From: a virus
Reading direction: 5' to 3' (one strand)
DNA: 23,623 bases
Virus record (IMG/VR): IMGVR_UViG_3300024520_002545
Span: 1 to 23,623 of that record
The notes beneath the pieces are model-generated. The model had not been told where the DNA came from, did not search any database, and was given only the letters and a program-made list of their open reading frames with translations. Both the position numbers and the translations under genes were made by a program. This document shows positions 8,512 through 23,527 of this stretch, piece by piece (within the stretch, counting starts at the first letter, position 1; every line of letters begins with the position of its first letter).

Positions 8512-8976
8512 TTATTTAATTGTTTGTATTGCTAATTCTTGGAAGTATTCAACCGACTTCTTACGGGTGTTGTATTCAATGCCTTGTTCCTTTAGATAGC
8601 TTTTAAGTTCTTCTACCGACATAAGCATGATTTCTTCTCTTGGCGTGTCCTCTATTCCTCCTTGATTGGTCGCTTCGGTTTCCTCGGTTTCGGTGGATTC
8701 ATCGTTTCCAACTGGTGCGGCTTGATTCTCTTGCCTTTCCTCTTCATAATCTTCTAATCTACTTTTTAAATACGGGTACTTTGACAACATCCGAACTTTA
8801 ACAGGCTTACCCGAAAACTCACCGTATAACTTTTCACCAATCTTATTATCTGTAATAAGAAATGGTTGGGCATCCATGTACCAATTAGCGTTATTAGACA
8901 AAAGCCAAGATACTTGTACCTTTTTCTTCTTGCCGTTCGCTTGGTGCGTTATTTCAATCTGTTCTATATTGTTCAT
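8512..8976 (-). CDS. Acidic structural protein with C-terminal HeH/SAP-like helices
   Basis: A 154-residue protein. Residues 1-80 form a beta-rich domain. Residues about 80-112 are very acidic and probably disordered (NDESTETEETEATNQGG). The last 40 residues (MSVEELKSYLKEQGIEYNTR and onward) resemble the short helix-extension-helix or SAP folds found at the ends of several phage head-associated proteins. The start overlaps the upstream glycosyltransferase stop (ATGA), and the gene lies 3 nt before the scaffold. A head-associated or DNA-contacting role is plausible but inferred. Confidence 0.6.
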   Translation of the reverse strand: MNNIEQIEITHQANGKKKKVQVSWLLSNNANWYMDAQPFLITDNKIGEKLYGEFSGKPVKVRMLSKYPYLKSRLEDYEEERQENQAAPVGNDESTETEETEATNQGGIEDTPREEIMLMSVEELKSYLKEQGIEYNTRKKSVEYFQELAIQTIK

Positions 8977-9833
8977 TTATTGATTAGTTTATCTCTCATT
9001 ATTGAGCCAACTTTGAAAATATGGTTAATCCCGTGAGCCTTGCAAAGTTCTCTCATGTGTCTATCGTAAAACTCAATATATTCGCGTTTTACATTAGTAA
9101 GACCAATTCCAGCCCCGTACATGGCAAGTATTTGATACTTCGCTTTCATCTCTGAAATAGGTATGAATCGGTCACCGTAAAATATTGGATTCTTTTCAGT
9201 TGCATCATAACCGCGTTTAGCTAATGCGCCACCTAAAGGAAGTTCATCGGGTAATGAAACACCCCACTTAACCTTTAATAGCCTTCTATCCGTGAACGTT
9301 TCAAAGTTTAGCCTAATAGCTTCTTTGAACATTGCCGTGTTTTCCTTTGTCTTTTTCGCGAAATGCCACGAAGAATGAACAGCGTAATAAGTATCATCGT
9401 CTTTTAAATCGAATTGCTCCCAAATATCTTTGTTGTCAGCCCAAACAGAATAAGCAATCTTGTCATCTTTACCGCCTTTACCCTCAACATCAAGAGCAAA
9501 GTCTTTAGTCATTGAATCGTAAAATGGTTGCAATGAACCTAATGCGATATTATCAACGTCTAGAAATAGGTACTTTTGAAAGTATTTAGTGGCTATCTTA
9601 TAAGTAATCAGCTTCACGTTAGCAGGGTCAAACATACCTTGCGGATGCGTATGATACTCGTCTATTGCGTGAAGTTTGTCAAAATACTTATGGTCACCAC
9701 CTAGATACTTAATGCCCTTATCGTGGATTAATAGAATCTTTGCTGTTGGGTCGTAATGCTTTATAGAAAAAGCGAAGTTGTACGCAGCGTGAAAGTACCC
9801 TTGTTTGCCAAATGCGGCTAATACAATGTTCAT
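8973..9833 (-). CDS. Glycosyltransferase, GT8-like (GT-A fold)
   Basis: A 286-residue protein. The N-terminal MNIVLAAFGKQGYFHAAYNF begins a nucleotide-sugar-binding fold. YLFLDVDNIALGSL (about residues 88-101) holds the D-x-D motif that binds the metal and nucleotide-sugar phosphates in GT8-type enzymes. Further on, DELPLGGALAKRGYD resembles the acceptor-side region of that class. It probably transfers a sugar from a UDP- or GDP-sugar to a protein or surface glycan; substrates cannot be read from the sequence. It lies among structural genes and is coupled to the next one (ATGA), so glycosylation of a virion protein is one possibility. Confidence 0.7.
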   Translation of the reverse strand: MNIVLAAFGKQGYFHAAYNFAFSIKHYDPTAKILLIHDKGIKYLGGDHKYFDKLHAIDEYHTHPQGMFDPANVKLITYKIATKYFQKYLFLDVDNIALGSLQPFYDSMTKDFALDVEGKGGKDDKIAYSVWADNKDIWEQFDLKDDDTYYAVHSSWHFAKKTKENTAMFKEAIRLNFETFTDRRLLKVKWGVSLPDELPLGGALAKRGYDATEKNPIFYGDRFIPISEMKAKYQILAMYGAGIGLTNVKREYIEFYDRHMRELCKAHGINHIFKVGSIMRDKLINK

Positions 9834-9879: not shown

Positions 9880-10512
9880 TTACCATCCAGCAGCATCGTC
9901 ACTCCGTCTATGCTTATGCCCAATTGTGCTAGTCATTCCAATATGCTTAACCAAACTAGGCATGTGATAGAACTGGAACAGTCCCATTTGATGTATTGCT
10001 TCAGGTATTGCGTGGTCAATCTGTTGGTTTGATTTGTAGTTCTCTAAGTGATTCAAGATAAAAGGATGTTTAAGCCATTTCAAAGCAACCTCTTTACGGA
10101 ACAAGTAAGCACCTCCCCAAGATGTACCCCAACCACCTTTAAGTTCCTGCCAACCCTTCTTATGTCTCCATCCTTTACCGTGAGCCAATCCAAGAGCCGT
10201 AAAGCAATCTAAATAGCCTATGTATGGATTAGCCTTAAATTGACGTAATGCTATATCTAACCATCCGTTAGAGTATTCAATGTCATCAGGGAATGAACCG
10301 ACAATATCAACGTCTTGTTTACATAGGTCTTCAATAACTCTGTAATAGTGTTTGAAGCATCCAACGTGACCACCAAGCAACTTACTATTCAAGTCGTATG
10401 ATAATGGTTGACCATCAGGATATACCGTGTAATCATGTCCAATCGTTTCAAGTGAACGTAATAGCGTTTCTTGTTTACGTGGATACCAACGAATGCCAAT
10501 TGCGGTTTTCAT
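9880..10512 (-). CDS. Glycosyltransferase, GT25-like
   Basis: The best start is ATG 10512 (MKTAIGIRWYPRK), which overlaps the upstream TGA (ATGA), giving 210 residues. An ATG at 10581 is also open but would extend deep into the previous gene. GGHVGCFKHYYRVIEDL resembles the Gly-Cys-x-x-His helix of GT25-type enzymes, and SFPDDIEY holds the acidic metal-binding motif. The end has a conserved-looking KHIGMTSTIGHKHRRSDD. It probably adds a sugar to a protein or glycan acceptor. A 46-nt gap with no visible signal separates it from the GT8-like gene. Confidence 0.7.
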   Translation of the reverse strand: MKTAIGIRWYPRKQETLLRSLETIGHDYTVYPDGQPLSYDLNSKLLGGHVGCFKHYYRVIEDLCKQDVDIVGSFPDDIEYSNGWLDIALRQFKANPYIGYLDCFTALGLAHGKGWRHKKGWQELKGGWGTSWGGAYLFRKEVALKWLKHPFILNHLENYKSNQQIDHAIPEAIHQMGLFQFYHMPSLVKHIGMTSTIGHKHRRSDDAAGW

Positions 10513-10691
10513 TGTTCTGCTTTCAATTTCTCCAAATATAGCACAAAATCCATTGCTTCCTCTTGTGCGTGTGTTAGCCATTCTAACGTACTCAATTGAT
10601 TATCTTGCAAGGTTGTTCCGTATTTCTTAATGCCTACGTTAGAACGCTCCTGAAACTTGTCTATCACGCTTTGAACTATTGGGTCTTTCAT
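10509..10691 (-). CDS. MazG-like mini-protein
   Basis: A 60-residue helical protein. The stretch ERSNVGIKKYGTTL followed by EWLTHAQEEAMDFVLYLEKL resembles small phage proteins related to all-alpha NTP pyrophosphohydrolases, where acidic residues on the EExxD helix bind metal. It is shorter than an active MazG monomer (about 90 or more residues), so it may work as an oligomer or may not be an enzyme. It is coupled on both sides by ATGA overlaps. Confidence 0.5.
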   Translation of the reverse strand: MKDPIVQSVIDKFQERSNVGIKKYGTTLQDNQLSTLEWLTHAQEEAMDFVLYLEKLKAEQ

Positions 10692-11697: not shown

Positions 11698-11820
11698 ATG
11701 GATAATGAACTCAAAGCATTGATAGATAAATTCGCAAAGGAAAACAACTTAGAGTTTAATCCACAAGGCAAATTGCTACTAGAGAAGTTCGCTACTTTGC
11801 TGGGTTACCGTAAACCGTAG
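11698..11820 (+). CDS. Small + strand protein, 40 residues, unknown
   Basis: This is the only likely gene on the + strand. ATG 11698 encodes MDNELKALIDKFAKENNLEF and onward, ending in LLGYRKP. The peptide is mainly amphipathic helix with balanced Lys and Glu and no low-complexity signs. It has its own TATCTTTG box, faces away from the tail-tube promoter, and its last 29 nt overlap the 3' end of the LpxA-like gene in antisense. It fills most of a 257-nt non-coding gap. A small regulator or an antisense effect on the opposing gene are both possible; no family is recognised. Confidence 0.5.
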   Translation: MDNELKALIDKFAKENNLEFNPQGKLLLEKFATLLGYRKP

Positions 11821-12370
11821 CACCGTCTAGAACGTCTTTAATGACTACTGAACCCATTCCAACAAGTGAATCAATGCCAACAGTCACGCGGTTACGTATC
11901 GTGCAACCTAGCTTAATGATAGCACCGTCTAGGATGGTAGTATAACCACCGATGATTGTTCCAGTGCATATCTCGCACTCGTTACCAATCTTAGCATCAT
12001 GCCCAACGTGAGAGTGAGCCATGATAATGTTATCGTCACCTATTACAGTAACTTGACCTTCTTCTTTAGGGCATTGAATCGTTACAAGCTCACTAATGAC
12101 GTTATTATCTCCAATGATAACCAAACCTTTGAACGAACGTTGAAACCCTCTTACAGTACCTTTAAAGTACTTAGGTTTACGCATTTCACCGTTTGAGCCT
12201 ATTACAGTATGCGCCCCTATTACGTTGCCTTTGCCTAATTTAACGTTATCATGAATGATAGCGGTTTTGTGTATCTCGTTACCATCGATGTTGATGTAGT
12301 CTGAATTATAGATTCCTGCTAGTTGTTCATCGTTTCCGACTAACGCCATTCTCTTTAGTTCTTCATTCAT
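11792..12370 (-). CDS. LpxA-like left-handed beta-helix acyltransferase
   Basis: A 192-residue protein made of hexapeptide repeats ([LIV]-G-x4), which fold as a left-handed beta-helix and form trimers. ELVTIQ followed by DDNIIMAHSHVGHDAKIGN closely follows LpxA, including the His of the A-H-x(2-3)-H-D motif that acts as general base. The C-terminal VVIKDVLDGATVYGNPAK is typical of sugar O- or N-acyltransferases. It probably transfers an acyl or acetyl group to a nucleotide sugar. Coupled to the upstream glycosyltransferase (TAATG), it may make or modify that enzyme's sugar. It is shorter than cellular LpxA (about 260) and lacks its C-terminal helices, so a dedicated phage role is likelier than lipid A synthesis. 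Confidence 0.75.
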   Translation of the reverse strand: MNEELKRMALVGNDEQLAGIYNSDYINIDGNEIHKTAIIHDNVKLGKGNVIGAHTVIGSNGEMRKPKYFKGTVRGFQRSFKGLVIIGDNNVISELVTIQCPKEEGQVTVIGDDNIIMAHSHVGHDAKIGNECEICTGTIIGGYTTILDGAIIKLGCTIRNRVTVGIDSLVGMGSVVIKDVLDGATVYGNPAK

Positions 12371-13038
12371 TATTCAAATATGTACGGAAATTGCTCCCTT
12401 ATGATTTGCGCGTCAATGTAAGAACTATTTTGCCAAAGTTCAAACGGGGTTATATTGGTACTGCTTTTAATGTCCAAAGCAAATAAACCCTTTTCCTTTA
12501 AGCTAAACTTTCCAACCTTTCCATTTATGCGCCTTTGCATTGAACTGTCAAGCCCCTTGTTAAGTCCATTTCTCCACGGCTCGTGACACATTCTATTGAG
12601 TAACTTAGCACTAATAACACAACCAGCACCTATTGAAATACCTTTCCTTTTATCGGCATAACCACCCCAATACATAGCACGTTTACTTTCCGTGTCGTAA
12701 AAATAGAAGTCTGTCAGACCTACAAAGTCGTAACCTTCATTCATGTACCTTAAATACTCTTGGAATAGTTCAGGCGAAATGATGTCATCAGAACCCATGC
12801 AAATAACATAGTCAGAACCTTTAGCCGCTCTAGTTGTGGCATTCATCTTGTTTGATAGTGGTCTGTTTGGCACTTCGATATAATCAAAGCCGTGTTTCTC
12901 AACCATCTTACGCGATGTTTCACCCTCTGAACCTGCAACAATAACACGAACTTCAACGCCTAAGTTTTCAATGCCTTTAGCGAACATCTCAAACACTTCA
13001 GGACGTTTCCAAACTCCCGTTACTATTGTTATTTTCAT
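12370..13038 (-). CDS. Glycosyltransferase, GT2-like (GT-A fold)
   Basis: A 222-residue protein. It starts with a nucleotide-binding strand (MKITIVTGVWKRPEVFEMFA). NKMNATTRAAKGSDYVICMG followed by SDD gives the D-x-D-like metal motif near residue 85. A later IGAGCVISAKLL resembles the acceptor-binding segment. The end is short and has no membrane helix, so the enzyme is probably soluble. It lies between a small lipoprotein and the LpxA-like gene, with TAATG overlaps on both sides, which suggests stoichiometric, coordinated synthesis. The substrate is unknown. Confidence 0.7.
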   Translation of the reverse strand: MKITIVTGVWKRPEVFEMFAKGIENLGVEVRVIVAGSEGETSRKMVEKHGFDYIEVPNRPLSNKMNATTRAAKGSDYVICMGSDDIISPELFQEYLRYMNEGYDFVGLTDFYFYDTESKRAMYWGGYADKRKGISIGAGCVISAKLLNRMCHEPWRNGLNKGLDSSMQRRINGKVGKFSLKEKGLFALDIKSSTNITPFELWQNSSYIDAQIIREQFPYIFE

Positions 13039-15749: not shown

Positions 15750-17672
15750 TTAGCTATTTTCAAATGTGCTTTTAATACTCCATTCAGTAATGCCATCTTC
15801 TAACCTTCTAGTCACATCATTTAAGAATCCTACTATTTGACCGTTAGGGTGGTTAACTGTAATAACGCCATACCTATCATCTAAAAAGTCTTGCCAATCT
15901 TGTGAACTTAATGGATAATCAAATGATGTTTTCATAAGGTAGTTTTCAGCAGGGTCGTAAGTCTTTTCAATAAAATCTAAATCGTTTACTTGAAAGAACG
16001 AATCTTGTATAACCTCGCTAATGTTAACTATGCCAACAGCTAACCTATCTCCTGCATCCATGTAAGTAGTCCAACTAATATTCCTTTCATAAGCACCGTT
16101 TACAAACACTTCAGGAGAACCACCAAGAGAATCAATTGAGTTTTGAGATACGGATGGCGCATATCTTGAAATAAATATGTTACCTGCAAATGATTGTGAG
16201 TTTGTGTATCTAATCCTTGCAATTGCCGTGTAAACCGAAGCAACTGGAGCTGTGTAGATGGTCTTTAATTGCGTGTCTGTTCCTGTATTCCCAACAACAT
16301 CAGGAGGTGAATCTAAAGCATATGAAACATCAGACATATTACCGTTAGTGTCGAATCCTTCAGGTAGTGTTCTATCAGGAAAGTAAATCAAGGCGAATCT
16401 TTGAAGCGCATCAACTGTGAATAATGTCGGGTTGTAAAAGGCGTTTCTGTAACCCCTCGCACCGTTTTGATTCTCTCCTAAGTATTGGAATATTGAAAAA
16501 GGAACACCATCACCCCAACGCAATGAAACCTCAAAGTTTGTTAATAGTGAATTGTAATATTGTTCGGCTGAATTTATAGGATTTGTATAAACAACAGATT
16601 CATTGTCAATGTCCATTGTTACAATGTAAATATCTTCAGACTTGCCGTTAAAGTCTACACCACCACCACTAGCAACCTCAAGGTTAGACATTATCACATT
16701 TGGGTCTGTGATTAGTTCGGTCATTTCTAAATCAAGTATTGACTTAGTGTTGCATTGACCTCCTAAATGATACTCTTCAGACCTAAACCCTAAGAACGTA
16801 ATATTAGGATAGTAAGTAAAATCGTCACTATCTTCTGATTGGCTTCCGAACTTAACTTTTTGGTAGAAACTCTTTACGTCTGATTCTTGCGTTACGGTTG
16901 TTGGGTTGTTAATTGTAGATACGTCAGACGTTTGTTTAAAGTACGCATCAGGCTCTACGCGAAGAACACCATCCTTAACATCAAAAGATAGATTGTAAAG
17001 CCTTGCCATGTCTCCATGAAAGTCTTCAAATGATATGTAAGGGAATAACGCGTCTGTGTTTCCGTTTCTTAATTCGTCAGCCGTTATTAACGTTGGAATA
17101 CGAACTTCTGGATTGTTGTCATCAGGTAGAAGATAATCACTTTCAAAACCAAGTAATCCATCAGTCATAAACGCCACAAGCATCTTGTACACATCGTAAA
17201 CTCTTACGCCTTGCCGTCCTGTTGTGTCGGGGTCTCCTATCGTGTTGCTCTTAAATAGTAGGTCTGTTTGAACTGATACCGAATCTGTAATATCAACATC
17301 ATTCTTTGAGCGTGGCACATTTACATAGGCTTTAATGCCCATGTTGTTATCAATCAACGAAAGGAATCCAGCGTCTACAACTTGAACAGATACCTCGCAA
17401 ATATCGGGTCTCCATTCGGCTTCATTCATAAATAGATTGCCGTTTAAAGTAAGCCCACAACCATCCTCAATTACTACTGGAATAACAGAACAGGCGTTGT
17501 CACGGTAAAGACTTCTTAAATTAGCGTAGTCTGAACCTCTAAATATCAAATCACCTTCAAACTCTTCTAGGTAAGAGCGTAGTTCAGTCGCGTAGTAAAC
17601 GCGGTGCTTCATTTCGCTTAACCCTTCAGGCTGGCTTACAATACTAAATACGTCTGAAGTAATACTAAGCAT
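15750..17672 (-). CDS. Tail tip / baseplate protein, unknown subfamily
   Basis: A 640-residue protein immediately after the tape measure, with its ATG inside the last 8 nt of that gene. This is the usual place of distal tail and baseplate hub proteins. The N-terminus (LSITSDVFSIVSQPEGLSEMK) and a first 130 residues with alternating strands fit a distal-tail-like domain. The middle and C-terminal parts are beta-rich with a final RYGVITVNHPNGQIVGFLND. It lacks any visible hydrolase motif. The role is inferred from place and size. Confidence 0.65.
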   Translation of the reverse strand: MLSITSDVFSIVSQPEGLSEMKHRVYYATELRSYLEEFEGDLIFRGSDYANLRSLYRDNACSVIPVVIEDGCGLTLNGNLFMNEAEWRPDICEVSVQVVDAGFLSLIDNNMGIKAYVNVPRSKNDVDITDSVSVQTDLLFKSNTIGDPDTTGRQGVRVYDVYKMLVAFMTDGLLGFESDYLLPDDNNPEVRIPTLITADELRNGNTDALFPYISFEDFHGDMARLYNLSFDVKDGVLRVEPDAYFKQTSDVSTINNPTTVTQESDVKSFYQKVKFGSQSEDSDDFTYYPNITFLGFRSEEYHLGGQCNTKSILDLEMTELITDPNVIMSNLEVASGGGVDFNGKSEDIYIVTMDIDNESVVYTNPINSAEQYYNSLLTNFEVSLRWGDGVPFSIFQYLGENQNGARGYRNAFYNPTLFTVDALQRFALIYFPDRTLPEGFDTNGNMSDVSYALDSPPDVVGNTGTDTQLKTIYTAPVASVYTAIARIRYTNSQSFAGNIFISRYAPSVSQNSIDSLGGSPEVFVNGAYERNISWTTYMDAGDRLAVGIVNISEVIQDSFFQVNDLDFIEKTYDPAENYLMKTSFDYPLSSQDWQDFLDDRYGVITVNHPNGQIVGFLNDVTRRLEDGITEWSIKSTFENS

Positions 17673-19998
17673 GGTAACCGCCTCTTTTTTGTGTCTTGAC
17701 TAACTTGTTCAAAGTGTTGTTTACCATACTCAAACCCCTAACGTTTGCCTGCCTATCTCTATCCATTGCGGATATGAGGTTGTGGTCTTTGAATTGAACG
17801 TTTAGGTTATTCCATTGGTTAGAATTAGAATCACCGTTATCTAACACGTTCTGAATAGCAGGGTAAACCATATTCTTATTAATCCACTCTTGACCGCTTC
17901 CAGCGTTTAACGCTTCTAATAAACCTGAGTTCTTCTTGGCGTGTTTGCCTTTAACTATAAACTCATCACCTTCAGCTTCAATCTTAACACCGCCTTGCGC
18001 GTGACTGTTACCGTGAATCTTACCTTTTGAATCTACCCATCCACCTTCTGCAAATTGAGGTAGTGGAGTACCTGCAATTACACCTATTTGAACAGCACCA
18101 AGACCAGCAGCAATACCAGCCATAACAGGTCCAAGTGGCAAGAAAGGAACGGTGTTAAGAGCGTTAGATACTGCTAAAGCCGTATTAATCACCGCTTGAA
18201 ATATAGCCGCGTTCTTTGCTGCTATCGCACTCTTACGTTCTAGTTTTCTGCGCTTTTCATCGTATTGCTCACGTGTTATTTGTCCAGCGTTTAATTGAGA
18301 TTCAAGACTTGCTAACTCCGCTTTGTGTCCTGCTGTTACTGCATCTGTTATACCTGAAACTATGTCTTTAACAGCGTTTGCATACGCTTCAAACTTCTCT
18401 AAATCTGTTGGCTCATCACCCTCTCCATCACCAAACAACCCTAAACCAGTAGCAGAACCGGGTGCGCCCGGAGCAACATTCGGATTACCTAAAGATGGGT
18501 CTATAAAGTCATCGTTAAAGCTATCAATCTTTTTCTTTAGCTTATCAACTTCTTTTGATGCTTCTTTATAACGTTTAGAAAATTCGGGGCTTGTGTCTAG
18601 TATTTCGTTCTGTTCTTTCAGTAACAGATTTAGTTCGTTGAGCGTTGATGATAGTAATGTTACAACTGGAATCCCTTCAGCCATTTCAGCACCTGTAAAT
18701 ACTTGGGCGCGTAGCTTTGCGTTGAGTTCTAACTCTTCGCGTAGCTTTTTCATTTCGGCTGTTTCCTTACCTAATAGTCTAGCTAATTCCTCCTCTAAAG
18801 CCTTTATCTTTGGCAGTAGTTCAGCTATCTTTTCACGTGAAACACCTTCAGAATTTACTTCATCAGTTAGGTCTTCAATGGCTTTCTTTAAGAAGAATAC
18901 GTTTCTTATTTGCTCTTTTTGTACTTCATCAACCTTTATACTAGCATCATAAATGAGTTTCAGTTGCTTAATATACTCACGCAAGAACTCTTGGCGTTCC
19001 TTCTCTTTTTCAATTGCTTCGTTTATGTTTGCAATCGCTTCTCTTGAATTTTGGTATGTTCTTGTTTCCTCTAGTTCTGCTATTTTTAGTTGAGATTCAA
19101 GTAATTCTTGATTCTTTTTCAGCATCATTTCAGTTGCCCCAACCACATCACCACTAAAGGTTTTAGCTAAACTCTTGGCTGCTTTTTCTGCACCAGTAAG
19201 GTTAACATCTATACCATCTATTTGACCTGCTAAGAAAGCAAAGCCAGTACCTAGATTAATCAACGCTTCGCCTAATCCGACTTTAAGATTTTCACCTATT
19301 ATATTAAGTTGAGCCAACTTGTCAGCCGTTGTGTCGGCTTGGTCACCCATCTTAGCTAACTCTTCTTCTGCAATATCACCAATGATTTGAGCAATATCAC
19401 CAACGTTCGCAGCTTCAACACCAACACCCTTTAGACGTTCTCTTAACTCAACTGCACTAATACCTAAGTTGTCAAGTATCAACGGAGACTTACGACCAAT
19501 ACCCAATACAATAGAGTTTGTCAGATATTCAACTGATTCGCCTGTTTCTCTCGCCCTTGCTTGTGCGAACTTAAATAGGCTTGCTAAGTTTTCTAATGGT
19601 ATCTTGAAGTTTGATGCTTGTACAGCCTTCTGCATCAACACTAAATCGCTTACAGTTCCTCTCGTTGCTTTTCTTAATCCATCTAATAGATTAGCACTAT
19701 TAGCACCACCAATACGCTTAAAGGCTCTTTCTACGCCCTCCATTTGAGCAGCTAGGGTAACAGCTTCTTTACCTAGTGCTATTACTTGAGTAGTAGCAAA
19801 AGCAACACCAAGAGCAGCCCCAACCTTTGAGAACTGACTAACTAAACTACTTGATGTTTTCTTGAAATTACCCTCTATATCCTTCGCGGCTTTCTTACCT
19901 TGCTTAGATAGGTCTTTTACTTCCTTCTCTAGCTTGTCAAGGTTATTAATTGCCTTGTCAGTCTTAACGATGTACTCCGCGACAATCTTATCAGCCAT
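17665..19998 (-). CDS. Tail tape measure protein
   Basis: A 777-residue protein with the hallmarks of a tape measure: an N-terminal coiled coil (residues 1-50), a hydrophobic stretch near 60-80, long charged helices in the middle (about 290-500, ESQLKIAELEETRTYQN and on), then a hydrophobic membrane-like segment around 600-655 (ALAVSNALNTVPFLPLGPVM and on). After that comes FAEGGWVDSKGKIHGNSHAQ, a glycine/histidine-rich motif frequent in Bacteroidota phage tape measures. It sets tail length and may help DNA cross the envelope. At 777 residues, using roughly 1.5 angstrom per residue, the tail would be in the order of 110 nm. Confidence 0.9.
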   Translation of the reverse strand: MADKIVAEYIVKTDKAINNLDKLEKEVKDLSKQGKKAAKDIEGNFKKTSSSLVSQFSKVGAALGVAFATTQVIALGKEAVTLAAQMEGVERAFKRIGGANSANLLDGLRKATRGTVSDLVLMQKAVQASNFKIPLENLASLFKFAQARARETGESVEYLTNSIVLGIGRKSPLILDNLGISAVELRERLKGVGVEAANVGDIAQIIGDIAEEELAKMGDQADTTADKLAQLNIIGENLKVGLGEALINLGTGFAFLAGQIDGIDVNLTGAEKAAKSLAKTFSGDVVGATEMMLKKNQELLESQLKIAELEETRTYQNSREAIANINEAIEKEKERQEFLREYIKQLKLIYDASIKVDEVQKEQIRNVFFLKKAIEDLTDEVNSEGVSREKIAELLPKIKALEEELARLLGKETAEMKKLREELELNAKLRAQVFTGAEMAEGIPVVTLLSSTLNELNLLLKEQNEILDTSPEFSKRYKEASKEVDKLKKKIDSFNDDFIDPSLGNPNVAPGAPGSATGLGLFGDGEGDEPTDLEKFEAYANAVKDIVSGITDAVTAGHKAELASLESQLNAGQITREQYDEKRRKLERKSAIAAKNAAIFQAVINTALAVSNALNTVPFLPLGPVMAGIAAGLGAVQIGVIAGTPLPQFAEGGWVDSKGKIHGNSHAQGGVKIEAEGDEFIVKGKHAKKNSGLLEALNAGSGQEWINKNMVYPAIQNVLDNGDSNSNQWNNLNVQFKDHNLISAMDRDRQANVRGLSMVNNTLNKLVKTQKRGGYHA

Positions 19999-20025: not shown

Positions 20026-20346
20026 TTATTTAGCCTGTCTCTTATCGCGCTCGTTACGCTGCCTTTCGGTGCGTTGCACAAAGATACGCAATTCAAATAA
20101 GAATTTCTTACAAGACATTGCCATTAGTCTGTCATAATGTATATCATCTTCAGACAAAACATTACGTACAAACATGGTGAAGTTTACCGTGTTCTTGTTT
20201 ACTCGTTCTCTAAGTTCATTGAATGAAGCAACTCCGTTCTTTGCTTTTGTGTCGCTATTACTTCTTGAAATCCGAGTAATAAGTCCTTCCAACTGTCCTT
20301 CGAAATTTTGAACTTGTTTGATAGGTCTTTTACAACGGTCAACCGA
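20026..20346 (-). CDS. Second frame of the tail-chaperone-like pair (-1 frame)
   Basis: This frame is -1 relative to the 208-residue gene. It opens at the T9 run and continues 106 codons, with no ATG for the first part. If ribosomes slip back one base at the T9 run, the product would be 266 residues (160 shared plus 106). Alternative starts are TTG 20292 (88 residues) and ATG 20175 (49 residues: MFVRNVLSEDDIHYDRLMAM and on). The latter lies 24 nt after the upstream stop and would be an ordinary separate gene. Phages commonly make a tail assembly chaperone in two forms by frameshifting just before the tape measure gene. Confidence 0.5.
   Translation of the reverse strand, partial: SVDRCKRPIKQVQNFEGQLEGLITRISRSNSDTKAKNGVASFNELRERVNKNTVNFTMFVRNVLSEDDIHYDRLMAMSCKKFLFELRIFVQRTERQRNERDKRQAK
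20079..20086 (-). promoter_or_regulatory. Possible internal -7 box upstream of the tape measure
   Basis: TATCTTTG occurs inside coding sequence 80 nt before the tape measure ATG, but no TTG is seen at -33. It could be coincidence from codons for Arg-Ile-Phe-Val. Confidence 0.2.
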
Positions 20347-20825
20347 AAAAAAAAGCTGTCACCGTTCTCAATTGCGGCTTTGATGTAGTCACACTTTTCT
20401 TTGTGAATCTTGTCGTTCGTGTCCTTCGGGTCTTCATCTTCACGAATCAAATCATTCGCTATCATGTTCACCAATACGTCAACTGGAACAACGCTTTCAG
20501 CTAATGTCATTAGGTCGGTTAATCTAGCACCTGCACCAATCAAATCAGCTTTGGCTAAGAACGTCTTAATGTCGCTTACACAATCGGTTAACAGTTCTTT
20601 GGATAGGTTAGCGTTAAGGTATTGCGCCACTTGCATATTAGCAGCCATACGTTTAACTGAATGACCCATTTCATCAGGGTACTCAAACCATGCTTTGCCG
20701 TTAGTATCAACGAAAGCTAATGTAAGGTCTTTATTTTCTAGCACCTTAACCCAACGTTGAGCAATATAATTGTCTATCGTGTCGGGTGATACTTTAGATA
20801 GTATCTTGAATAGTATGTTTTTCAA
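20199..20825 (-). CDS. Tail assembly chaperone-like protein
   Basis: A 208-residue protein that starts at TTG 20825, which overlaps the upstream TGA (TTGA); no ATG is available. It is helical and acidic, with SPDTIDNYIAQRWVKVLENK near the start and repeated leucine-rich helices. Its position, one gene pair before the tape measure, and the overlapping -1 frame that follows are the standard arrangement of tail assembly chaperones, which coat the tape measure until the tube is built. No sequence motif is diagnostic. Confidence 0.6.
   Translation of the reverse strand: MKNILFKILSKVSPDTIDNYIAQRWVKVLENKDLTLAFVDTNGKAWFEYPDEMGHSVKRMAANMQVAQYLNANLSKELLTDCVSDIKTFLAKADLIGAGARLTDLMTLAESVVPVDVLVNMIANDLIREDEDPKDTNDKIHKEKCDYIKAAIENGDSFFFRLTVVKDLSNKFKISKDSWKDLLLGFQEVIATQKQRTELLHSMNLENE
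20346..20354 (-). other. Candidate -1 frameshift slippery site (T9 run)
   Basis: AGC-TTT-TTT-TTT-CGG in the chaperone frame contains T-TTT-TTT, which allows both tRNAs to re-pair after a one-base backward slip. The new frame is open from here to 20026. A small palindrome, CGGTTGACCG, follows at once. A sequencing error in the nine-base run would create the same picture. Confidence 0.45.
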
Positions 20826-21892: not shown

Positions 21893-23265
21893 TTATACGA
21901 AAGCCTTTTGCCGCCATCTAATCCACTTCATGCAATCTTTGTGGTTGATTGCGTATCTAAGACAATCGAGGTGGTCAGCGTGTTGGTGTACGTCCTTACG
22001 GTTGCTCTTTACAATTCCACCCTCTCCATTAGCTTCAACGAATCGCATATCACGTATTAGGTTCTCACATCTTGGGTCAATCCTAAAATCTATCTTATCC
22101 TTTCCTTCGCCTGAATGGTAAAGAACATAGTTCAAATCATTACGACTGTTAACGTGTCTAGGGTTGCCGCTTGTCTGTATTTGTTTCGGCTTAATCTGCA
22201 ACTCCCTTCTTATCTGCTCGAAGTTACTAGCATGGTCTGCTTGGCTCATTTCGCGCTTGTTACCGTTGTAATCACCTGTTATAACACACCTCCACATATC
22301 AGCAGGGGTGAACTTCCTTTTAATCTCACCAACTGCCTTACCAATCGTTCCAGCTTTTATAGTAGCTTCATCGAATACCCATAAATGCCAACCTTCACTA
22401 TCTTGGTACACCTGATAGAATATGAACCCAAACGGGTCAATGTTAAAGTCCATTGAGATGTACAACGGGTATTCCTTCTTATGCCAACATGACTTGATAT
22501 GTGTTTCATCATCCCAATCATTAGCAAATCTATTACCTACTTCGATAACCTCCCAATCACCCTCAACAAAACGTTGATACTGCAATGGTGGTAGGTTGCG
22601 TTTAAGCCCTTCAATGTACTTGTCAGGCAAGAAAGGGTTATCTGTAATCTTTGCTTGAATGTACGCCCATGATTCAGGTAGTGTACCATCCATGAACCTA
22701 TCGTAAAACAACTCCTTAACCCAATTATGAGTAGGGTTACAAGTAGCGAAGATTATACTAGGCACATCATGTCCAGCCTTTAACCAAGTTCCAGTACGTT
22801 CAATCAACTTGTCAAACGTTGCTCTTTGAAGTTCGTTTATTTCTTCAGCACCTGCACCGTTGATTTCAAGCCCTCTAAAGCGGTTTAGTTCCTTATCAGT
22901 ATCAAATGATTCAGCCATGAATATAATCTGACTGTCATTCTTAAAAGTAACCGTGTACGTGTCTCTATTGAAGTCCTTAACGAATGATTGTAACCCTTCG
23001 GATAGTAACGCCTGAAAGGAGACTAGCGTAGTTCGTTTGAGCGTTGGTAATGACTCACGAACTATTACCCAACGTGAACCAGCGTACTCAGAACATAAGT
23101 ACGTGAATAGCGTTAGTAACGCAACTGTTTTTCCACCTCGATATTTCGCCCCCTCTACCTAGATAGAAGGGGCTAAAGCCGTATAGCACCACCGTAGAGA
23201 ATAACGTCTTTCTCTCCAGATAGTGCTAACTCAAACGCTTCACTTTGCTTCGGGCTTAGTTCCAT
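21893..23265 (-). CDS. terL: Large terminase subunit, reading frame split by a 41-nt hairpin insertion
   Basis: ATG 23265 encodes MELSPKQSEAF and on to LYGGAIR (29 codons), then Leu and TAG (23175-23173). The frame resumes at CGA 23140 as R-GGKTVALL and runs to 21893. Without the 41 nt the protein has 443 residues, the normal length. In that numbering, the P-loop RGGKT is about residues 29-33, the acidic pair after LEINGAGAEE about 127-128 (Walker B), FATCNPT about 159-165, and nuclease acids D259 (SMDFN), D318 (TGDYNGN) and D417/D420 (DHLD). It packages and cuts DNA. ATG 22918 would start within the ATPase and lack the P-loop. The start overlaps the small terminase gene by 26 nt. Confidence 0.85.
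23141..23181 (-). other. 41-nt hairpin insertion in the terminase P-loop (candidate bypass element)
   Basis: On the minus strand, CGG (23181-23179), CTT and TAG are followed by a hairpin, and translation would restart at CGA (23140-23138). Bases 23177-23144 form the stem: TTT-A-GCCCC-T-TCTA pairs with TAGA-G-GGGGC-G-AAA (12 Watson-Crick pairs, one U·G, one A·G mismatch). A further U·G closes a CUAG tetraloop. The stop codon lies in the 5' arm. The two flanking Arg codons, CGG and CGA, could be read by the same tRNA. Confidence 0.75.
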
Positions 23266-23527
23266 TAATTTTCAATATAAACGGCTCATCGTTAGTTGTG
23301 ATTTCTGTCTTTTGTTTAGGTAATCCCCAATCGTAAGACATTAGCAATTTTGCGGCTGCTAGTTGGTCTGATTCCTTTTCGCCATTTCGCATGATGTTAA
23401 CGACCTTTGTAATCGTTTCTTCACGATATGGTGAAAGCATATCTCTAAGTCTATCCTCGTCTGCCTTTGGCTTCCTTCCAGCCTTTCCTTTAGTGGAATG
23501 ACCACCGTTATTTCTCCGTCCGTCCAA
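23240..23527 (-). CDS. terS: Small terminase subunit
   Basis: A 95-residue basic protein that starts at TTG 23527, as the codon before it is TAA and no ATG is near. The N-terminus is Gly/Lys/Arg-rich (STKGKAGRKPKADEDRLRDM), then helices (REETITKVVNIMRNGEKESD and on) and a C-terminal tail with GLPKQKTEITTNDEP. Small Bacteroidota phage terminases share this GRKPKAD-helices-GKPKQ layout. It recognises phage DNA and loads it on the large subunit, whose gene overlaps its last 26 nt. Confidence 0.75.
   Translation of the reverse strand: MDGRRNNGGHSTKGKAGRKPKADEDRLRDMLSPYREETITKVVNIMRNGEKESDQLAAAKLLMSYDWGLPKQKTEITTNDEPFILKINGTKPEAK

Follow-up and report, generated by a model that had tools for sequence, protein, structure and literature searches.

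A hairpin insert in the Walker A codons of phage large terminase genes as a probable mobile bypass cassette

Results

The terL gene is split within its Walker A codons

The window, which is the whole stretch of 23,623 nucleotides of viral DNA that was analysed (IMG/VR record IMGVR_UViG_3300024520_002545), carries on its minus strand a large terminase gene (terL) whose Walker A codons are split by 41 nt. The features of this locus, in the order in which the gene would be read, are the following.

23240..23527, minus strand: 95-aa ORF in the small-terminase position, overlapping the terL start, with a putative function assigned from its place
23182..23265, minus strand: 5' coding part of terL, 28 codons MELSPKQSEAFELALSGEKDVILYGGAI, from ATG at 23265 to ATA at 23182; the N-termini are homologous in all relatives
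23181-23179 (23179..23181), minus strand: CGG (Arg), the proposed take-off codon; among the 50 distinct insert-bearing loci, this codon is CGA in 46 and CGG in 4
23178-23138 (23138..23178), minus strand: non-coding gap (the insert), 41 nt including the landing codon, absent from 77 distinct relatives
23173..23175, minus strand: TAG stop, second 0-frame codon past take-off
23148..23173, minus strand: hairpin GCCCCUUCUAU-CUAG-GUAGAGGGGGC, 11 bp, whose stem covaries across 30 distinct inserts
23138..23140, minus strand: proposed landing codon CGA, which would re-pair and not be decoded
21893..23137, minus strand: 3' coding part of terL, from GGKT to the stop, 414 codons, matching Pfam Terminase_3 and a PHROGs terminase

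On the minus strand the junction reads TAC GGT GGT GCT ATA CGG / CTT TAG CCCC...GGGGGC GAAATAT CGA / GGT GGA AAA ACA, where GAAATAT is the linker between the hairpin and CGA, and resumption would occur at GGT 23137 (GGT GGA AAA ACA, encoding GGKT). From 23140 onwards, 415 codons follow without a stop (RGGKTVALL...), and joining the terL codons by a skip of 41 nt gives a terminase of 443 residues. Profile matches identify the protein as a large terminase subunit (Terminase_3, E 3e-10; phrog_979, E 2e-19), and the 95-aa ORF had no match in Pfam. These data agree with a first-pass annotation of the same DNA, which had described a 443-residue terminase recovered by skipping 41 nt inside the Walker A motif, between YGGAIR and GGKT, with CTT-TAG after CGG and a hairpin with a possible CUAG loop. 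The gap was placed there at 23141-23181, which corresponds to the same gap shifted by one Arg codon, since here CGG rather than CGA is taken as the decoded codon.

Folding of an 81-nt region of the window gives -25.8 kcal/mol, with a z of only -1.8 against shuffled sequences, so the window's fold taken singly is weak evidence. An assembly error, which the first-pass annotation had left as an option, is contradicted by an overlapping IMG/VR contig (3300024518_001487) that has the identical insert and differs at 2 of 7,146 nt, and by diverged versions at the same junction elsewhere. The window insert is neither an error nor a product of decay.

Elsewhere in the window, two overlapping minus-strand ORFs (20026-20292 and 20199-20825) are placed like the frameshift pair of a tail assembly chaperone, just upstream of a tape-measure-like ORF (17665-19998). 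Also, four minus-strand ORFs inside the structural gene region (8973-9833, 9880-10581, 12370-13038 and 11792-12370) look by eye like glycosyltransferases and a hexapeptide acyltransferase.

A family of inserts occupies a single terL junction

A comparison of homologous terminases, which the first-pass annotation had proposed, shows that relatives with and without the segment both exist. Pooling all loci from IMG/VR, 50 distinct terL loci bear an insert and 77 distinct loci are insert-free. The former, drawn from more than 40 metagenome datasets, yield 30 different inserts, each 39, 40 or 41 nt long and all at one terL junction. When relatives were collected by protein similarity alone, an insert was present in 26 of 80 loci and absent from the rest, the junction following YGGAIR or FGGAIR and preceding GGK. 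A DNA pattern scan returned 58 stretches, 52 of them terL P-loop inserts, and a scan blind to the hairpin returned 49, of which 47 were P-loop inserts, all of the terL hairpin type. The two other stretches of the blind scan (L233 and L234) are chance matches within an unrelated open reading frame. In cellular genomes, none of the 13 pattern matches had an in-frame upstream P-loop, and they were judged to be chance.

The hairpin was not found outside terL: the 31 loci matched by a gene-blind hairpin pattern were all among the known terL loci, and a covariance model run over 23 contigs located the terL site only, apart from two weak matches. A search of Rfam for an intron or known RNA family gave no match at the insert, two weak matches falling elsewhere. 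Among cultured phages no close relative was detected, blastn giving no match and all tblastn terminase matches lying below 60% identity. Phage tRNA genes that could explain decoding were absent from 21 loci.

The insert has a fixed design with a covarying stem

The 5' spacer between the take-off codon and the stem is always 6 nt, in 17 different sequences; its length was preset in the pattern scan, and the protein-based and hairpin-blind searches likewise gave only 6-nt spacers. The stem is of 9-11 bp and opens with CCCC, being interrupted by an internal loop in three loci (L007, L008 and L012). The loops are mostly GNRA (GAAA in 20, GCAA in 5 and GUAA in 1 of the 30 inserts), and CUAG, UUAG or UAAC are found in the window's clade. 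After the stem, a linker of 6-9 nt leads to CGA, CGT, CGC or TGA, this last triplet occurring in L007 and L008, and then to GGN GGN AAR. Across the distinct inserts, 93% of the stem cells are paired, compared with 47-59% when slid, and changes on both sides that keep a stem pair number 45 cells versus 18.5 in shuffles.

The landing codon is identical to the take-off codon in 13 of the 30 distinct inserts, a synonymous Arg codon in 15 and TGA in 2. The jump from CGG to CGA, both Arg, suggested by the first-pass annotation fits the codons of the window; across the family, landing would often be at a different, synonymous Arg codon, and in two contigs at TGA. Moreover, every insert contains a 0-frame stop, which is the first codon past take-off in 7 of 30, the second in 11 (among them the two GGTTAG inserts) and a later one in 12, these last having their first stop at least 8 codons past take-off. 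In 19 of the 30 inserts, no start codon follows the last landing-frame stop ahead of the landing codon, which is often directly preceded by TAA. Because of these stops in every insert and the missing start in 19, a protein with an intact P-loop cannot come from one frame or by general reinitiation. Reinitiation and simple frameshifting were both rejected as general mechanisms.

A possible 4-bp outer helix (GGN-GCY on the 5' side of the insert and GGY-GG on the 3' side) can form, by synonymous choice, in 46 of 50 insert-bearing loci versus 4 of 77 insert-free loci, and it shows no both-side covariation. This helix could have its source in co-transfer of the N-terminal stretch or in escape from an endonuclease, and it would also suit excision. 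Separately, ATA precedes the take-off codon in 49 of 50 insert-bearing and 30 of 77 insert-free loci.

Both sides of the insert are under purifying selection

Over the 300 codons after the insert, dN/dS is 0.040 in insert-bearing pairs versus 0.042 in insert-free pairs. Within insert-bearing pairs, it is 0.035 over the first 16 codons after the insert and 0.115 over the 25 codons before it. Given the value of 0.035 over those 16 codons, the codons beside the insert must be translated, and the earlier suggestion that the insert inactivated the gene finds no support at a dN/dS of 0.04. A second complete large terminase gene, whose possible presence the first-pass annotation had raised, was not seen in insert-bearing contigs of about 34-38 kb, each of which has a single terL. 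In a contig of 34.6 kb, terL continues across the two contig ends, as it would if the genome were circular.

One contig of 52 kb (3300044695_002763; L058/L154 and L131/L167) departs from this with two terL copies, one insert-free and one insert-bearing, separated by 35,684 nt. It looks like about 1.5 genome lengths assembled from a mixed population, and both of its alleles probably coexist in one sample. In another contig (3300032331_001014, L016), terL has one in-frame TGA and is otherwise intact.

An HNH endonuclease gene accompanies the insert

A gene of about 174 codons with NUMOD4 and HNH_3 domains (PF07463, E 1e-11; PF13392, E 6e-9; Pfam) lies directly 5' of terL, after the small-terminase gene, in 21 of 46 insert-bearing versus 0 of 74 insert-free distinct loci (Fisher p 5e-11, a value that overstates independence, the loci being related). 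When the search was started from the HNH protein, the insert was present in 20 of 20 terL-adjacent copies with the P-loop covered. Also, no HNH gene of the NUMOD4 and HNH_3 family was found in 14 insert-free contigs of 34-38 kb, and the cassette with the HNH gene is present in several separate terL clades. The adjacent gene is absent in 25 of the 46 insert-bearing loci and near the window's copy. In the contig of L007 (G002), an HNH gene of the same family is located at 24785-25147, about 9 kb from terL and not adjacent to it. Two distant HNH relatives (L256 and L257) were set aside because their surroundings differ; L257 lies ahead of a different terminase gene with an intact P-loop.

In a tree built from the part of terL after the insert, insert-bearing and insert-free genes alternate, with at least 29 changes by parsimony, 15 of them forced by well-supported branches. 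Pairs that differ in the insert reach up to 95% DNA identity in the terL body after it. On the other side, synonymous sites in the 25 codons before the insert are saturated between insert-bearing and insert-free genes, which is attributed to the HNH cassette lying just upstream. For example, L084 and the insert-free L170 share 94% identity as far as a point 81 nt ahead of the junction, where about 500 nt containing the HNH gene are extra in L084; past this gene the terL N-terminus is 74% identical, followed by the 39-nt insert and then by 93% identity. The tree, the pairs and the comparison of L084 with L170 are each those of horizontal transfer into closely related insert-free genomes and, at the level of sequence, mobility of the insert is well supported.

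Discussion

A mobile bypass cassette

We consider it likely that the terL P-loop is the site of a mobile bypass cassette, one copy of which is seen in the 41 nt of the window: an endonuclease would attack insert-free P-loops, the insert would protect from it and ribosomes would bypass the insert. The full cassette would comprise the HNH homing endonuclease gene, the first terL codons and the hairpin insert of 39-41 nt in Walker A. The HNH endonuclease would cut insert-free terL at or near the P-loop, and repair from a cassette-bearing genome would copy the HNH gene, the insert and the stretch between them, rendering the new terL site resistant to the endonuclease. The window phage would then have an orphan insert, kept without the HNH gene in the part seen, and the other loci that lack this gene may be explained likewise.

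In translation, ribosomes would stall at the Arg codon CGA or CGG, 6 nt before the hairpin and with the stem close to the mRNA entrance. By analogy with known bypassing, the ribosome may then release the mRNA while holding peptidyl-tRNA-Arg, cross the gap and re-pair at CGN before GGN-GGN-AAR. The coding frame is interrupted by a gap that has to be skipped, judging from the reading frames, the relatives and dN/dS, and a stable hairpin is found within this gap; the terL N-terminus ahead of it is terminase sequence and would be conserved in any case, whatever the nascent peptide does. In L007 and L008 the Arg residue must come from the take-off codon because the landing triplet is TGA, and bypassing predicts the same; a UCG anticodon could pair with this triplet by means of a G-U pair at the first position. 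Bypassing and a mobile hairpin, which had been offered by the first-pass annotation as alternatives, thus appear to be favoured jointly. That annotation did not include the linked HNH gene or the spread of the insert across the family.

An alternative that we regard as unlikely is that the hairpin is cut from the mRNA and the ends resealed by a host or phage activity, as in a tiny intron-like element, with the same mobility by the HNH endonuclease. Precise excision allows any insert length, and all three lengths modulo 3 are indeed represented; the possible 4-bp helix could join the junctions in 46 of 50 insert-bearing loci, and phage introns with homing endonucleases are common (PMC2988022). 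Even so, excision would require neither the constant 6-nt spacing from Arg to the stem nor the CGN that is nearly constant at the 3' end, the insert has no Rfam match, and 39-41 nt is far smaller than known self-splicing introns. A more specific version, in which the insert is a new kind of spliced phage element of 39-41 nt, spread by HNH and with paired flanks that join the junctions, seems slightly less likely still.

It is improbable that the two parts are never joined, so that a short N-terminal peptide would be made along with a C-terminal TerL whose translation begins within or beyond the insert. Eleven of the 30 inserts do have a landing-frame start codon after the last stop, such as the GTG of the 39-nt class, whereas the other 19 have none, the first downstream ATG is mostly 45-74 codons on, past the Walker A lysine, and purifying selection acts on both sides of the insert. 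Finally, an assembly error, or a dead gene in defective phages or chimeric contigs, is refuted for the family and retains hardly any probability, for although all data are metagenome assemblies, including the 52-kb contig with two alleles and the relative with a TGA inside terL, the inserts come from many datasets with covarying stems and a dN/dS of 0.04, in contigs of 34-38 kb with a single terL, and in one of these the gene runs over both ends.

For the preferred reading, a mobile and bypassed insert, this would be a widespread, compact and horizontally moving bypass cassette, bypassing having been known mainly from one gene of T4. No report of the terL hairpin-insert family was found in the open-access literature, a scope outside which most subscription journals and preprints lie. 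The 30 distinct elements, along with sister genes that lack the insert and reach 95% identity in the terL body, form a natural series that makes it possible to test which mRNA features serve ribosome release and landing, and whether bypassed inserts owe their spread to homing endonucleases. Moreover, gene callers split such terminases, and the phages may be misread as defective.

Comparison with known systems

In gene 60 of T4, 50 nt are bypassed from GGA to GGA with the participation of a stop, a hairpin and the nascent peptide, and a role of the insert in protection from the adjacent HNH nuclease mobA has been proposed (PMC5009743, PMC11194080, PMC3014915); efficient phage bypassing in this gene was called unique in a 2010 review (PMC3014915). 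In the T4 record the 50-nt gap can be read directly, and mobA is annotated as defective, beyond ORF 60.1. In T4 gene 60 with mobA, as in the terL cassette, the gene of an essential enzyme contains a short non-coding insert that forms a tetraloop hairpin, and an HNH gene is adjacent; a stop near take-off is shared by gene 60 and many terL inserts. However, take-off is at Arg CGA or CGG in terL and at Gly GGA in T4, the terL hairpin starts 6 nt past take-off whereas that of T4 includes the take-off codon, and the loop is GNRA instead of UUCG. Also, the terL landing codon is often not identical to the take-off codon, both being GGA in T4, and the stop is late in 12 of 30 terL inserts, unlike in T4. 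The terL inserts are found in many lineages, unlike gene 60, and the HNH ORF next to terL is intact and directly 5' of it, in contrast to mobA.

The nearest reported terminase case is phage phiHau3, for which bypassing has been proposed (PMC5009743). As in terL, the phiHau3 gene (L232, 2329-3995) changes frame at a Walker A-like site, KGWG and then KDP, and an HNH gene is annotated upstream (591-905), as in the terL cassette. Nonetheless, its gap is described as much shorter, around a UUA codon, the terminase is of a different family and there is no matching hairpin insert; phiHau3 may be a parallel case.

In mitochondria of Magnusiomyces, byp elements occupy 81 sites in 12 genes of one genome, and their bypassing is largely independent of the mRNA context (PMC5009743). 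These are also blocks of nucleotides bypassed within genes, with take-off and landing codons that do not always match (PMC5009743), although the terL inserts keep to one site, one conserved hairpin design and one gene, in phages. Finally, group I introns and inteins with homing endonucleases resemble the terL insert in being mobile and endonuclease-linked and in occupying the most conserved codons of an essential gene, whereas the terL insert has no ribozyme or protein-splicing domain, measures only 39-41 nt and has its endonuclease gene outside.
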